Of a stretch of DNA of 31,872 nucleotides, positions 3,734-11,365 are shown piece by piece. The notes below the pieces were generated by a model. It searched no databases and was not told the DNA's origin. It worked only from the letters and a program-made list of their open reading frames with translations. Origin of the DNA: a virus; the IMG/VR virus record IMGVR_UViG_3300033571_010791, positions 1 to 31,872 of that record. One strand, 5' to 3'. Made by a program: the position numbers and the translations under genes. Position 1 is the stretch's first letter; the number at the start of each line of letters is the position of its first letter.

Positions 3734-3915
3734 TGCCCAGCTATGACTACAAATGCCGCACGTGTGATGCCGTTGTCAGCATCGTTGCAAGCATAAAAAA
3801 AGACCCAGACATCCCCATTTGTAGCAATTGCCAATTGGAAATGATTCGTCAATTTTCAGCCCCACCAATACGCTTCAATGGCTCAGGCTTTTACTCATCA
3901 GGTAAGAACAGATGA
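3733..3915 (+). CDS. FmdB-type zinc ribbon protein
   Basis: The protein is 60 aa with the FmdB/CxxC regulatory pattern: MPSYDYKCRTC (first CxxC), ICSNCQ (second CxxC), then RFNGSGFY near the C-terminus. Four cysteines form a single zinc ribbon. The family is common in bacteria and actinophages, where the function is unknown, though a DNA- or protein-binding role is likely. GTG 3733 uses the last base of the previous stop (TAGTG), so expression is by translational coupling. It precedes the HNH gene with a 4-base overlap. Confidence 0.85.
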   Translation: MPSYDYKCRTCDAVVSIVASIKKDPDIPICSNCQLEMIRQFSAPPIRFNGSGFYSSGKNR

Positions 3916-4238
3916 AGTTTCCTCGTCCGTGTTTGGAATGCCAAAAGCTACATACGGATTATGGCGATTATTGTGCAGGGTGTAGGCGTGAAGTCCAGCG
4001 CCGTATCAATAACAATCCCAATCGCCGCGCCCGCAAACAAGCTTTGTATTCGTCTGCTTACCGTGCTGCCGCCAAAATAATCAAGCAAAATGCCACGCAT
4101 TGCCACATCTGCAAACAGCCATTTGAATCACGTGCCGACATCACGGCTGACCACATCATTGCGGGTGATGCCAATAGCCCATTGGCACCAGCGCATAAGA
4201 CCTGCAACAGCCGCAGGGGTAACAAGCCTTTAGCTTGA
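3912..4238 (+). CDS. HNH endonuclease
   Basis: The protein is 108 aa. An N-terminal zinc site (CLECQK, CAGCRR) is followed by a basic helix and the HNH core: CHICKQPF, then TADHIIAGD (catalytic His), then PAHKTCNSRRGNKP (Asn-containing finger end). HNH proteins of this kind lie beside terminase genes in many HK97-like phages and are needed for DNA cutting during packaging in several studied cases. Here the terminase genes begin about 1.9 kb downstream, after a non-coding gap and the ParB/ABC-GNAT pair. ATG 3912 overlaps the previous gene by 4 bases. Confidence 0.88.
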   Translation: MKFPRPCLECQKLHTDYGDYCAGCRREVQRRINNNPNRRARKQALYSSAYRAAAKIIKQNATHCHICKQPFESRADITADHIIAGDANSPLAPAHKTCNSRRGNKPLA

Positions 4239-4491: not shown

Positions 4492-5016
4492 ATGAAAATC
4501 GAAGAAATCAAAATCGGGGATTTGAAGCTCGACCCCGACAACGCCCGCACGCACGACCAAAAAAACCTCGATGCCATCGCGGGCAGCTTGGAACTTTTTG
4601 GGCAACGCAAACCCATTGTCATAACATCCGCCAACGTGATTGTCGCGGGCAACGGAACCGTTCAAGCAGCCAAGATTTTGAAATGGGAAAAAGTTGCTTG
4701 TGTCCGAATTCCCGATGATTGGACCACCGACCAAATCAAGGCTTACGCTTTGGCGGATAATCGCACCGCCGAATTGGCAAAATGGGACGAACAAGTTCTT
4801 GGCATCCAGCTTTTGGAACTATCTGAAAATGATTTTCCAATTGAACAATTTGGTTTTATGCAAGAGGAAAAACCAGACAAAATTACCGATACCGAAGAAA
4901 TGAAATGGGACGAACGTTACGAAGTAGTAATCGAATGTGCCAATGAAATTCAACAGCAAGAATTGCTAGACCGCTTTGTAAAAGAAGGTTTTAAGGTTCG
5001 GGCGATTGTTGTATGA
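4492..5016 (+). CDS. ParB-like nuclease-domain protein
   Basis: The 174-aa protein has a ParB N-terminal fold. LDPDNARTH (about 13-21) and FGQRKPIVI (36-44) are followed by VIVAGNGTVQAAKILKW (49-65), which corresponds to the nucleotide-binding box, then ALADNRTAELAKWD (86-99). The usual Arg of the ParB 'GxxR' box is replaced (AGNGTVQAA). A separate C-terminal segment (ERYEVVIEC through VRAIVV, 141-174) follows. This is the short phage type, often fused or linked to DNA-modifying enzymes, and not a chromosome-partition ParB; no ParA or centromere repeat is present. ATG 4492 behind AAAGGA is preferred over TTG 4486. Its stop overlaps the ABC-GNAT gene (ATGA), so the two probably work together. 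Confidence 0.85.
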   Translation: MKIEEIKIGDLKLDPDNARTHDQKNLDAIAGSLELFGQRKPIVITSANVIVAGNGTVQAAKILKWEKVACVRIPDDWTTDQIKAYALADNRTAELAKWDEQVLGIQLLELSENDFPIEQFGFMQEEKPDKITDTEEMKWDERYEVVIECANEIQQQELLDRFVKEGFKVRAIVV

Positions 5017-6137
5017 AAACCATCAAATTAGAAACCGTCATTGAACGTTCTGCTCGCGTGATGCAATTGGAAGGAATGTTTGATTTGCAACCATCCGAGA
5101 AAGCCATCACCGAAGTTCCGTTGAACATCCCCGATTTGTCCGAACGTGATTGGTCAATCGGTTTGATTGTTGGTCCATCTGGCGCGGGTAAAACAACCAT
5201 CGCCAAACAAATGTTTGCGGATGAAATGAAACATTTGGATAATTTCAAATGGTCAAAAGACAAAGCCGTCATCGATGATTTCCCAAAGGATTTGTCTATT
5301 CGAGAAGTCACCGAATTGCTGTCATCCGTTGGATTTAGTTCACCACCAGCTTGGTTGCGCCCGTTTTACACATTGTCCAATGGAGAACAATTTCGCGTAA
5401 CGATGGCGCGTGTATTGGCTGAAACAGGCAAAGACAAAATTGCCGTTGTCGATGAATTCACATCCGTCATTGACCGAACGGTTGCCAAAATCGGGTCAAA
5501 CGCAATTGCCAAAACCATTCGAAGACGTGGGCAAAAATTTGTCGCTGTTGGTTGTCATTATGACGTTCAAGAATGGTTGCAACCAGATTGGGTTTATGAA
5601 CCACATACGGGTTCTTTTCGATGGGAGTATCTTCGGCAACGACCACCAGTCCAATTACAAATCTTTCGAGCAAATTATGAGGCGTGGAACTCATTCAGTC
5701 GCCACCATTATTTGACCGCTGACCTAAACAAATCGGCTCAAATTTATGTTGCTTGCATCGAAGAACAGCCCGCTGCTTTGATAGCAATTTTGCCATTGGT
5801 CCACGGCGTAGTAAAAAACGCCAAACGAATTTCGCGTATTGTTGTATTGCCTGATTTTCAAGGCATTGGATTGGCTACAAAATTTATGGATGCAATTTGC
5901 GCCGCTTTATTGGCACAAGGTTTTGACACATACATAACCACCAGTCATCCAGCATTGATACGTGCTTTGAACGTGTCCAAAAATTGGTCAGTTCATCGCA
6001 AACCGTCACGTGTTGCCAAAGTCGGACCAAATAGCCAACGTGGATTGGTTTCATCTGGCGCACGCGTAACCGCTGGATTCAAATTTGCTGGAAATGCCGA
6101 TGCAACATTGTTGCCGATACTCGCACCGAGGAATTGA
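5013..6137 (+). CDS. ABC-type ATPase fused to a GNAT acyltransferase (COG2401-like)
   Basis: The 374-aa protein has two domains. The first is an ABC ATPase: Walker A GPSGAGKTT (54-62), signature LSNGEQFRV (121-129), Walker B KIAVVDEFTS (142-151, catalytic Glu148) and H-loop His182. The second, from about 215, is a GNAT acyltransferase: HHYL (231-234) and motif A RIVVLPDFQGIGLATK (275-290) with the acyl-CoA loop Q-G-I-G-L-A. No membrane segment is seen, so it is not a transporter. This fusion is known as COG2401. The phage Mu Mom protein is also a GNAT enzyme that modifies adenine in DNA, so a Mom-like DNA modification role is a reasonable hypothesis. It is coupled to ParB upstream and lies 2 bases before the small terminase. 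Confidence 0.85.
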   Translation: MKTIKLETVIERSARVMQLEGMFDLQPSEKAITEVPLNIPDLSERDWSIGLIVGPSGAGKTTIAKQMFADEMKHLDNFKWSKDKAVIDDFPKDLSIREVTELLSSVGFSSPPAWLRPFYTLSNGEQFRVTMARVLAETGKDKIAVVDEFTSVIDRTVAKIGSNAIAKTIRRRGQKFVAVGCHYDVQEWLQPDWVYEPHTGSFRWEYLRQRPPVQLQIFRANYEAWNSFSRHHYLTADLNKSAQIYVACIEEQPAALIAILPLVHGVVKNAKRISRIVVLPDFQGIGLATKFMDAICAALLAQGFDTYITTSHPALIRALNVSKNWSVHRKPSRVAKVGPNSQRGLVSSGARVTAGFKFAGNADATLLPILAPRN

Positions 6138-6139
6138 TT

Positions 6140-6628
6140 ATGCCCGCAGGAAGACCCACCAAACCCATTGAACAAAAACGGATGCTTGGCAATCCGGGCA
6201 GACGACCATTGCCCGAATCATCGGCTTTGGTGCAATTGAACGGCATCGATGAAATACCCGAACCATCACGCCCATTGTTGAAATACGGACGTGAATTTTG
6301 GGACAAAATTTGGTCAATGGGAAACACTTGGATTAGTTTCAATTCCGATTCTGAATTGTTGTTGATGACGTGCGAAATGATAGACGAACGTTGGAATTTG
6401 AGAATCAAAGTTATGCAAAACGATGAGCCGCGTTTGCGCCGAGGTTTGAGAGAATTGGACAGACAAATAATTTCCAATTTGTCATTGCTCGGATTCACCC
6501 CAAGCGATAGAAGCAGACTCGGTGTTGCCGAAGTAAAAGCAGCATCTAAATTGGAAGAATTGAAGCTTAGAAAGGCGAAAATTGTGGCCACCACAATGGC
6601 TGACCCCAGTTCCACAGAATCAAATTGA
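6140..6628 (+). CDS. terS: Terminase small subunit, P27 family
   Basis: The N-terminus is the family hallmark: MPAGRPTKPIEQ then MLGNPGRRPLPES. The 'GRP..p......GNPG.R.lp' pattern marks P27-type small terminases, which recognise the packaging site and pass DNA to the large subunit. At 162 aa it is of usual size, with a helical middle and an Ala/Lys-rich end. ATG 6140 behind GAGGA is chosen; the TTG at 6134 in frame would add two residues. The gene overlaps the large subunit by 47 bases, which is unusual but supported by that gene's own ribosome site. Confidence 0.88.
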   Translation: MPAGRPTKPIEQKRMLGNPGRRPLPESSALVQLNGIDEIPEPSRPLLKYGREFWDKIWSMGNTWISFNSDSELLLMTCEMIDERWNLRIKVMQNDEPRLRRGLRELDRQIISNLSLLGFTPSDRSRLGVAEVKAASKLEELKLRKAKIVATTMADPSSTESN

Positions 6629-8087
6629 TACAGGGCAAGGCGACCTTGTAATTGATTTTGCTGAGAATTTTGGCGTAGTCACCAAAGATTCAGTTGCTGG
6701 CGTTTCTGGCGACCCATTGCATTTACGTGATTGGCAAAAAGAATTAGTTCGTCACGTATTTGCTGGCGAAGATGGTTTGTATCGTCACGCCATAAATCTG
6801 ATTTTGATGCCAAGAAAAAACGGCAAATCGGCACTTGGTTCTATTTTTGGATTGTATTCATTGATTCTTGGCGTTCGCGGTGCCGAAGTTTATTCTGTCG
6901 CGGCTGAAAAAGAACAGGCGCGAATCGTTTTTCAAGATGCTAAACGAATGATTGAAGCAAATGAAGAACTTAGCAAAGTCACAAAGCTTTATCGCGATGC
7001 AATTGAATTGCCATCCGAAGGTTCCGTTTATCGCGTATTGTCTGCCGAAGCTTATTCCAAAGAAGGCTTGAATCCGTCAGCGGTTATTTTTGATGAGCTG
7101 CACGCCCAGCCCAATCGCGAATTGTTTGATGTTATGTCTTTGGCTATGGGTGCGCGTGGTCGTTTGGCAACGCTAATCGCCATCACAACTCCGGGTGTCA
7201 AAACCGATTCAACGGGACAAGATTCAATCGCTTACAGTCTTTATCAGTATGGGCAAAAAGTCGCTCGCGGAGAAGTGCAAGACAATACTTTTTTTATGGC
7301 TGCTTGGGAAGCACCGATTGAAGCAGACCACCGCGACCCAAAAACTTGGGAAGTTTCCAATCCGGGATTTGGTGACATTTGTTCCGCAGAAGATTTTGCA
7401 TCGGCGGTCAAACGAACACCAGAACCAGAATTCAGAACCAAACGATGTGGTCAATGGGTTTCATCAGCGGTATCTTGGTTGCCAACTGGTGCGTGGGAAG
7501 CCTGTGAATCTGAATTGGATTTGGACGGCAAAGAATACGTCATCGGCTTTGATGGGTCATTTAGCGGCGATTCAACCGTATTGATTGGGGCAACCATTGA
7601 ATCCGAACCACAAGTTTTTATGATTCAAGCTTGGGAAAAAGACGTAACGATTCACGATGATTTGTGGCGAGTGGACATTTTGCAAGTCGAAAACAAAATC
7701 AGGGAATTTGTGGCTGCAAACCCCAACGTCAAAGAAATAGTCTGTGACCCGTATCGATGGCAAAGGTCGATGCAGGTGCTAATGGAAGAAGGTTACCCAA
7801 TTGTTGAATATCCAAGCACCAATGCCCGCAGAATGGTGACCGCGTGCGCTAAATTTTTCGATGCCGTGGTGGAAAAACGGCTAAAACACGATGGCAATCC
7901 GTTATTGGCTAGGCATTTGTCAAATGCGGTAGTCAAACAAGACAATTTGGGAATTCGCATCGTAAAAGAAAATCGGTCATCAACCAGAAAAATAGACGCC
8001 GCTGTTGCCGCTGTTATCGCGGTGGATAGAGCGTTGCAAGTTAGAATAGAACCAGAACAACAAATGCCGGGTGTCTATGTATTCTAA
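6582..8087 (+). CDS. terL: Terminase large subunit
   Basis: The 501-aa packaging motor begins PPQWLTPVPQNQIDTGQGD, as actinophage large terminases do, which supports the TTG start at 6582 (AAAGG six bases upstream). The ATPase domain has LMPRKNGKSALG (Walker A variant, about 81-92) and SAVIFDELHAQP (Walker B with catalytic Glu). The nuclease domain has YVIGFDGSFSGDS, EIVCDPYRW and IDAAVAAVIAVDRA as three acidic clusters that bind metal. The enzyme translocates DNA into the prohead and cuts it. The end overlaps the start of a small membrane protein gene. Confidence 0.95.
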   Translation: MWPPQWLTPVPQNQIDTGQGDLVIDFAENFGVVTKDSVAGVSGDPLHLRDWQKELVRHVFAGEDGLYRHAINLILMPRKNGKSALGSIFGLYSLILGVRGAEVYSVAAEKEQARIVFQDAKRMIEANEELSKVTKLYRDAIELPSEGSVYRVLSAEAYSKEGLNPSAVIFDELHAQPNRELFDVMSLAMGARGRLATLIAITTPGVKTDSTGQDSIAYSLYQYGQKVARGEVQDNTFFMAAWEAPIEADHRDPKTWEVSNPGFGDICSAEDFASAVKRTPEPEFRTKRCGQWVSSAVSWLPTGAWEACESELDLDGKEYVIGFDGSFSGDSTVLIGATIESEPQVFMIQAWEKDVTIHDDLWRVDILQVENKIREFVAANPNVKEIVCDPYRWQRSMQVLMEEGYPIVEYPSTNARRMVTACAKFFDAVVEKRLKHDGNPLLARHLSNAVVKQDNLGIRIVKENRSSTRKIDAAVAAVIAVDRALQVRIEPEQQMPGVYVF

Positions 8088-9575: not shown

Positions 9576-9836
9576 ATGCCAGTTATTGCCACTAATTACA
9601 GCGTAGGCACAGTTGCAGTTTTGATTTGTGCAGCCAATTCAAATCCACAAAATTTACACGTCCATAACAACAGCGAACACACCGTTTATTTGGGCAATGC
9701 AAACGTAACGACTACAACTGGATTGAATTTACCGAAACAAACCACGGAAGAATTTTATGTAGTTCCAGGAGATTCGCTTTATGCCATTTCCGACGGCGCT
9801 GCTCGCGATGTGAGAATTTTGAGCTGGATAAAATAA
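9576..9836 (+). CDS. Small beta-rich virion-type protein (86 aa)
   Basis: ATG 9576 directly follows the portal stop, with TCCGGAGAACTAA as ribosome site. The product is beta-rich with LHVHNNSEHTVYLGNANVT, then GLNLPKQTTEEFYV and VPGDSLYAISDGAARDVRI. This alternation of short strands and turns ('vyLG...tt..G..l......l.pgd.LYAis') is seen in small head- or tail-associated proteins of many phages. It may be a decoration or head accessory protein; that is inference from position and composition. Confidence 0.6.
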   Translation: MPVIATNYSVGTVAVLICAANSNPQNLHVHNNSEHTVYLGNANVTTTTGLNLPKQTTEEFYVVPGDSLYAISDGAARDVRILSWIK

Positions 9837-11365
9837 TGCCGTATTACATAACAAACACAAATCCTGAATGTGATGGTTGGGCTGTCGAAAAAGAAGATGG
9901 CGAAGTAATCGGTTGTCACACGTCCAAAGATTCAGCCATTGACCAAATGGTTGCAGTATCAATCGCGGAAGGCATTGAACCCGCTGGCGAACGCGCTAGA
10001 CCCGAAGATTTAGAAATCGGTGATTATGTGTCTTGGAATTCATCTGGTGGTCGCGCACGTGGCGAAATTGTTGAAATTGAACGTGATGGAACTATAAATG
10101 TCCCAAACGCGGATGTGACAGTCACGGGAACGCCAGATGACCCAGCCGCATTGATTCAGATTTATCAGCGTGTTGGAGATGGTTGGGAAGATACAGATGT
10201 TTTTGTTGCACACAAATTTTCCACGCTAACCAAAATCGACCCATTGCCTGAACCAATGGATGAAGATGATGAAGATTATGAAGATGATGATGAAACACGC
10301 CAAGTCAATTTGACACCGCCAAGTTATATGCGTGCATCTGCAAGACGTGGATTGCAATGGTATTCCGAGGGATTGGGTGGCGATGGTTTGGTAGACCGCA
10401 CCATTCGCGAAGCTCGCGCAATGGCTGAAGGCAATGTATCCGCAGACAAATGGGTAAGAATCGCCGCGTGGATTGCACGTCATCTTTCTGATTTAGATTC
10501 CCCAGATGCTAATCCAGAATCAGATAATTATCCATCAGCTGGAGTTGTCGCTATGGCATTGTGGGGCGGTGGAACAACCAAACGTTCCGCACGTCGGACA
10601 ATGGAATACGCGCAAGGCGTGGTCGCTAGAATAAAAGCCGAAGAAGAACGAGGAACAATGAAGCAAGAAACAAGAAATTTCCACGCGGATTTTGAAATTC
10701 GCGCCGAAGGCGATGGAATGACTTTTGTGGGTTATGCCGCTAAATTCAATTCACGTTCTGAAAACCTTGGTGGATTTGTTGAAACGATTGAACAAGGTGC
10801 ATTTAGTCGCTCATTGCGTTCTCGTAACGATGTGAAATTGCTTGTCAATCACGATTCAGGTCGCGTATTGGCATCATCACGTGCCAAAACGATGCGATTG
10901 TATGAGGACCAAATTGGATTGCGCGTAGAAGCAGATTTACCAAATACCACCGATGGCAGGGATATGGCTGAATTATTGCGCCGTGGTGATTTGAACAAAA
11001 TGAGTTTTGGATTCAGCGTTCAAAAAGATTCTTGGAACAACGATATGACCGAACGCACATTGAAATCGGTGCGTTTGTTCGAGGTTTCGATTGTCAGCTT
11101 CCCAGCGTATCAAGAAACAGAAGCAATGGTGCGTTCATTGGACAAAGTTGCCAAACGAGCCCAAGTTGATGCTGATGAATTGGCAGATGCCGTTATGAAA
11201 TTAGAAGAAGGTTCTGATTTGTCGGATAAAGAAGCCGACCTAATCAAAACGGTAGTAAATTCTCTTGCGCCGAAACAAGCACAAACAGAAACACCAACCG
11301 AAGAACAAGCCAATTTGCTAGAACTAAAGCGAAAGCAGCTTGACCTATTGCTAAAGAAGGACTAA
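9836..11365 (+). CDS. Multidomain capsid maturation (prohead) protease
   Basis: The 509-aa protein has four parts. Residues 1-50 hold a motif with GWAVEKEDGEVIGCHTSK. Residues about 60-132 resemble the small DUF2945/HVA1-type beta domain (GDYVSWNSSGGRARGEIVEI). An acidic linker (about 139-153) leads to a helical segment with YMRASARRGLQWYSEGLGG and YPSAGVVAMALWGGG. From Met275 comes the HK97 protease domain: FVGYAAKFN, KLLVNHDSGRVL (catalytic His) and LNKMSFGFSV (catalytic Ser). It trims the capsid protein during assembly. The protease domain alone is the usual length of this family, so the first 274 residues are an extension. An in-frame ATG at 10658 has a good ribosome site. Confidence 0.9.
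   Translation: MPYYITNTNPECDGWAVEKEDGEVIGCHTSKDSAIDQMVAVSIAEGIEPAGERARPEDLEIGDYVSWNSSGGRARGEIVEIERDGTINVPNADVTVTGTPDDPAALIQIYQRVGDGWEDTDVFVAHKFSTLTKIDPLPEPMDEDDEDYEDDDETRQVNLTPPSYMRASARRGLQWYSEGLGGDGLVDRTIREARAMAEGNVSADKWVRIAAWIARHLSDLDSPDANPESDNYPSAGVVAMALWGGGTTKRSARRTMEYAQGVVARIKAEEERGTMKQETRNFHADFEIRAEGDGMTFVGYAAKFNSRSENLGGFVETIEQGAFSRSLRSRNDVKLLVNHDSGRVLASSRAKTMRLYEDQIGLRVEADLPNTTDGRDMAELLRRGDLNKMSFGFSVQKDSWNNDMTERTLKSVRLFEVSIVSFPAYQETEAMVRSLDKVAKRAQVDADELADAVMKLEEGSDLSDKEADLIKTVVNSLAPKQAQTETPTEEQANLLELKRKQLDLLLKKD

Follow-up and report, generated by a model that had tools for sequence, protein, structure and literature searches.

What does a phage do with two overlapping genes, the first for a ParB-like protein and the second for an ABC ATPase joined to a GNAT acyltransferase? 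Such a pair lies ahead of the terminase genes in the stretch of DNA analysed here, a 31.9 kb virus record (the window). One way to understand it is as a system that modifies bases in phage DNA; taken as a whole this is the best explanation, and we consider it likely to be right. That a GNAT domain with an ABC ATPase acylates DNA nucleobases is a prediction which a passage of PMC7824862 attributes to Iyer et al. (2013); to judge from that passage, the core idea has already been published as a prediction. A literature search found no biochemical characterisation of the ABC-GNAT family, and no paper under the name COG2401.

The layout is as the original prediction described it: open reading frame coordinates and family matches place the pair after an HNH gene and ahead of the terminases, and ATGA forms the 4-base overlap of the two frames.

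3912..4238, plus strand: HNH endonuclease, a neighbour given for context (PHROG 338, 8.7e-9)
4492..5016, plus strand: parB-like gene, 174 aa; ATG at 4492 behind AAGG, stop at 5014-5016
5013..6137, plus strand: abc-gnat gene, 374 aa; ATG at 5013, stop at 6135-6137; PHROG 11143
6134..6628, plus strand: TerS, terminase small subunit, given for context (Terminase_7, 2e-6; 69% identical to the TerS of locus L258)
6582..8087, plus strand: TerL, terminase large subunit, given for context (TerL_nuclease, 5.4e-22)

The window TerL is 59% identical to the TerL of the records that hold loci L258 and L259. Promoter and terminator signals around the pair gave nothing useful, their counts being those of shuffled sequence. 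Elsewhere in the window, the early region encodes a thioredoxin-domain protein (799-1170; PHROG 22, 3e-16), and 9836-11365 encodes a head maturation protease with an N-terminal Hva1_TUDOR-like domain (2.4e-9).

The second protein gives a full-length profile match to PHROG 11143 (5.4e-111, residues 3-362), a family with no assigned function in PHROG, and has the family's Walker A motif, signature, Walker B glutamate, H-loop and acyl-CoA loop intact. Both of its Pfam domain matches lie above the curated cut-offs.

5100..5612, plus strand: ABC ATPase domain (Pfam ABC_tran, 6.8e-7; Foldseek matches to ABC nucleotide-binding domains)
5172-5195, plus strand: Walker A, GPSGAGKT, a motif in the 37-sequence alignment
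5373-5390, plus strand: ABC signature, LSNGEQ, a motif in the same alignment
5445-5456, plus strand: Walker B, VVDE, likewise
5556-5558, plus strand: H-loop histidine (H182), invariant in that alignment
5646..6092, plus strand: GNAT acyltransferase domain (Pfam Acetyltransf_1, 2.7e-7; GNAT folds are the best structural matches)
5703-5714, plus strand: HHYL motif within the GNAT domain
5850-5870, plus strand: acyl-CoA loop, PDFQGIG, within the GNAT domain

Across 37 diverse relatives the ABC part keeps the Walker A glycines and lysine, L121, S122, G124, D147, E148 and H182 invariant; the GNAT part does the same for H232, Y233, L234, R275, V277, P280, Q283, G284, G286 and W325. These columns bear out the claim that the ABC motifs are complete and accompanied by an acyl-CoA loop. 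The claim that a membrane segment is absent also holds: the AlphaFold model of the whole protein (pLDDT 89.8, pTM 0.82; 90.3 pLDDT for the GNAT part alone) is of a soluble alpha/beta protein in which no such segment is evident.

The original case for DNA modification leaned on kinship between this GNAT domain and Mom of phage Mu, and on this point it is not supported. The Mom family of Pfam (PF25680) does not match the window protein at E 0.1; hhalign against Mom is insignificant (probability 0.8%, E 0.068), although it aligns HHYL with the KHYS of Mom; and Foldseek with the GNAT model against the PDB returns generic GNATs first, RimI included, with Mom (8bv8) absent from the top 50 matches. 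Against a viral library Foldseek finds one Mom, at rank 38. Pfam, profile comparison and Foldseek give no support for a Mom relative: the domain is a generic GNAT fold and not a member of the Mom family. Resemblance to protein acetyltransferases instead of Mom had been named beforehand as an outcome that would count against modification of DNA, and for the fold that is what was found; the fold, however, is silent on substrate, and context points to DNA. The reading of DNA modification survives, then, by enzyme swaps, com linkage and ParB pairing, and has lost its Mom-like GNAT; it is well supported, though from context and not from the GNAT fold.

The first protein is recognizable by family profiles in two parts.

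4492..4860, plus strand: ParB-like (ParB/sulfiredoxin-type) N-terminal domain (PHROG 620, 3.1e-40)
4912..5013, plus strand: C-terminal tail of the ParB-like protein (ERYEVVIECANEIQQQELLDRFVKEGFKVRAIVV), about 34-38 aa, an adapter specific to ABC-GNAT

The N-terminal domain belongs with the ParB-like proteins of PHROG 620, and is matched also by PHROG 498, a family of ParB-DNA methyltransferase fusions (4.8e-36), and by PADLOC MTase_II (2.1e-18); Pfam ParB_N falls below its cut-off (0.0025). ParB partition proteins have a GERR-type motif as their canonical CTP-binding motif. GNGTVQAA replaces it in the window protein, and no ParA was found among the flanking genes scanned. The arginine of 'GxxR', said at the outset to be missing, is indeed missing here; as a description of the family this does not hold, as relatives with GHGR exist.

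The tail (residues 140-176) is matched by PHROG 28816, which also matches stand-alone peptides of 40-60 aa from Mu-like phages (1.1e-21 and 5.8e-9); tail and peptide are homologous. Iterative searches started from the tail and from the peptide converge, yielding sets of the same size, 168 loci. In a survey of 85 loci, described below, the tail was present in all five ABC-GNAT-linked ParBs and in none of the 80 others. As the tail occurs only with ABC-GNAT-linked ParBs, the ParB domain seems to serve as the general module facing DNA, and the tail as a docking piece, which would sit on the ABC-GNAT protein. A small gene of Porphyromonas phage008a annotated 'acr candidate' (32675-32803; L086 3364-3492) is another homolog of the tail in PHROG 28816, and an anti-CRISPR role for it is therefore doubtful.

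The pairing of the two genes is a real unit and not chance. Each of three queries, scanned against viral contigs, matched between 250 and 366 of them. Of the 366 ABC-GNAT relatives found in viral contigs, 77 of the best 80 are immediately preceded, usually with overlap, by a ParB gene or its tail; of the other three, two begin where the contig does and the third lies 616 bases downstream of a ParB. A scan of genome contigs gave at least four loci. The ABC-GNAT family is widespread among phages, and phages with names that carry it infect Gordonia (Mariokart and BiggityBass, of the ParB type, on G. terrae), Lactococcus (P335), Streptococcus, Leptospira (LE4, on L. biflexa), Pseudomonas (Komp_PAO1_1) and Porphyromonas; matches in phage-plasmids of E. 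coli, Salmonella and Klebsiella cover the ABC part only. Klebsiella phages KP15 and KP27, which carry a DNA modification of unknown kind (PMC5219037), were dropped as a lead, an ABC-GNAT match to either being absent among the matches listed.

Some phages of Lactococcus, Oenococcus and Streptococcus have the split form, with separate adjacent ABC and GNAT genes behind the ParB gene; such neighbours indicate that the two domains act together, fused or not. Annotation can conceal the split form: the 'DNA polymerase' of Enterococcus phage 9184 (L097 4025-4855) is the GNAT half of one. In Gordonia/Rhodococcus phage Jace, gp87 (L084 4598-5023), directly after the ABC-GNAT gene, is an aspartate decarboxylase (Asp_decarbox, 2e-33), an enzyme whose product, beta-alanine, is a CoA precursor.

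The surroundings of the pair vary: its relatives lie next to the terminase in some phages, close to replication genes in others, and in others again at the ends of the genome. A survey had been proposed of whether ParB, ABC-GNAT and terminase co-occur across phages; they do not do so generally, and terminase linkage as a rule is rejected. Nor is the partner universal, as a class of large phages of the PX29 type (L178-L257) has ABC-GNATs without ParB, tail or Com.

The context that speaks for DNA begins with the other partners of the ParB-like domain. Scans with the ParB sequence and then with an alignment of ParBs gave the 85 phage loci with the closest ParB domains; these loci are not fully independent, some being near-duplicates, and in 80 of them the ParB domain has a modification enzyme or an associated gene as its partner, fused or near downstream. 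The partners are N6/N4 DNA methyltransferases (36 fused, three adjacent), Mom (17), TET-associated glycosyltransferase or TAGT (10), another methyltransferase and/or a C5-methyltransferase adjacent (six), ABC-GNAT (five), and one each of D12 methyltransferase, TET/JBP oxygenase and GTP cyclohydrolase I; representatives of the families were confirmed by Pfam and the others counted by profile searches. Five loci, one of them truncated, have no recognised partner. ParB-like genes adjoin the TET-associated glycosyltransferases at L301, L306, L312, L331 and L349, among others, and have as neighbours TET/JBP at L339 and GTP cyclohydrolase I at L327.

For a background rate, these detectors were applied to the DNA within 1.5 kb of ABC-GNAT genes: among the loci of three classes, 1/80, 0/80 and 13/80 have such an enzyme there. 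The 13 belong to the PX29-type class (class C), where the enzyme is Mom or a methyltransferase, and phage PX29 itself encodes Mom besides its ABC-GNAT; the enzymes are therefore not strictly alternatives.

Two loci, L258 and L259, stand close to the window. Their ParB domains share 65% identity with that of the window, more than most ParBs linked to ABC-GNAT do. Each has an N6/N4 DNA methyltransferase fused to it, with homologous TerS and TerL genes following directly, and both ParB domains fall in the window's own supported ParB clade. In the same tree the Mom-linked ParB of Microbacterium phage Appa is nested among the actinophage ABC-GNAT-linked ParBs; the columns are too few to settle the fine branching. 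ParB seems to be a general partner of phage DNA hypermodification.

The second line of context comes from Mu-like phages. Com, the activator of mom translation in Mu (PMC6483171), is encoded ahead of mom there; in Pseudomonas phage Komp_PAO1_1, com (PF10122, 1.8e-21) is followed in turn by a 49-aa peptide, ABC-GNAT and a formyltransferase (Formyl_trans_N, 3.2e-17). Among 80 related viral loci the peptide is present in all, Com lies upstream of the ABC-GNAT in 69-70, and the formyltransferase occurs in 54 of the 58 with room for it. A direct swap is seen in Porphyromonas: phage008a and phage012a are collinear up to position 32468/33291, and the identity of their aligned DNA is 88-95% in almost every block (about 95% in one of 20 kb), falling to 76% in a single block near the left end; the last slot then holds Mom (PF25680, 5.9e-56) in phage012a and peptide, ABC-GNAT and formyltransferase in phage008a. 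The mom slot and com linkage are features of the clade B relatives, not of the window itself. ABC-GNAT does its work where Mom would otherwise sit, yet is not a Mom; as it occupies the place of known DNA-modifying enzymes in other phages, it very probably adds a chemical group to phage DNA. The swap in two such close phages makes this question directly testable.

A second perspective takes the target of acylation to be a protein of the host or the phage, such as RNA polymerase, a nuclease or a defence protein, with ParB merely positioning ABC-GNAT on DNA. Phage Rac, which acetylates RNA polymerase, would be the analogue. The closest folds are indeed those of generic GNATs, the protein acetyltransferase RimI included, and some phage GNATs are known to have host proteins as substrates (PMC7824862). 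Acylation of a protein leaves unexplained, however, why DNA methyltransferase, Mom, TAGT and TET should repeatedly take the place of the enzyme beside the same ParB domain or in the same slot, and why there is a linkage to com; we regard it as improbable. A target in tRNA, rRNA or mRNA, modified at cytidine or adenosine by a TmcA-like enzyme, is more improbable still: TmcA (2zpa) does appear among the Foldseek matches of the full model and has the ATPase-GNAT architecture in common, but it aligns poorly (TM-score 0.28 by query length), and the enzymes found as genomic partners act on DNA. Least probable of all is a defence or exclusion module, the ABC ATPase a sensor and the acyltransferase an effector, for although the pair occupies variable accessory slots and the ABC domain has weak PADLOC matches to mad3 (9e-11) and mad8, those matches span short ATPase stretches only, a conserved toxin or nuclease partner is absent, and the fact that Mom and methyltransferases, standing alone, can replace the pair speaks for self-modification.

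If the pair does modify phage DNA, its parts might work as follows. The ParB-like domain would carry the complex to DNA, its C-terminal tail docking on the ABC-GNAT protein; the ABC ATPase would form a dimer on the DNA and use ATP to engage, distort or scan the duplex; and the GNAT domain would transfer an acyl group from acyl-CoA to the exocyclic amine of bases. Modification would take place before packaging. The modified DNA would resist host nucleases, as with Mom, and evasion of restriction is a plausible result. The product would probably be a new base, installed by an ATP-coupled route, with a bearing on restriction evasion, phage engineering and nanopore base calling.

In one clade the modification may have a further step. 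The formyltransferase is restricted to a single, fully supported clade of ABC-GNATs, which spans Mu-like phages (with Com), Gordonia phages (with ParB) and Porphyromonas phages (with the peptide only); it thus tracks the enzyme clade and not the type of phage, which suggests a part in the chemistry. The usual formyltransferase active site is an Asn-His-Asp triad; here the histidine and aspartate are conserved and the asparagine is replaced. The formyltransferase would probably complete the modification: an aminoacyl (glycyl-like) group might, for example, be placed on the exocyclic amine and then N-formylated, as PurN-type enzymes N-formylate glycinamide ribonucleotide. Gordonia phage BiggityBass belongs to the ParB-ABC-GNAT-formyltransferase set by its gp3 (L094 1823-2473), which is annotated as a tRNA-methyltransferase and matches Pfam Formyl_trans_N (7.1e-10). 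The most inclusive account would have many DNA-modifying enzymes targeted by a common platform of phage ParB-like domains, an ATP-driven ABC-GNAT docked to it through a dedicated tail and making a new base, and a two-step hypermodification in the formyltransferase clade; that all of these should hold together is a tentative proposal, and we would not expect it to prove correct in full.

Among known systems, TmcA, the tRNA(Met) cytidine acetyltransferase (2zpa), is alike in joining an ATPase and a GNAT to act on a nucleic-acid base, and its presence among the structural matches also speaks for base modification; it differs in its ATPase, which is not of the ABC type, in its RNA substrate and in having no ParB. 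Tenacibaculum phage pT24, in which PMC7824862 names a GNAT-ABC ATPase homolog, is nearer. Its homolog is 39.7% identical to the window protein and has the same predicted role, whereas its ABC and GNAT genes are separate and a ParB was not detected within about 3.5 kb; the window has a tailed ParB. The ParB-DNA methyltransferase fusions of PHROG 498 share the ParB-like domain (65% identical) and the position upstream of the same TerS, but their catalytic part is a SAM-dependent N6/N4 methyltransferase and they are without the tail adapter. Mom of Mu is alike in its GNAT superfamily and similarly placed HY dyad, in occupying the same genome slot with com linkage in Mu-like phages, and in pairing with the same ParB-like domains; ABC-GNAT, for its part, has a canonical acyl-CoA loop of the QxxG type where that of Mom is divergent, and adds an ABC ATPase and a tail adapter.
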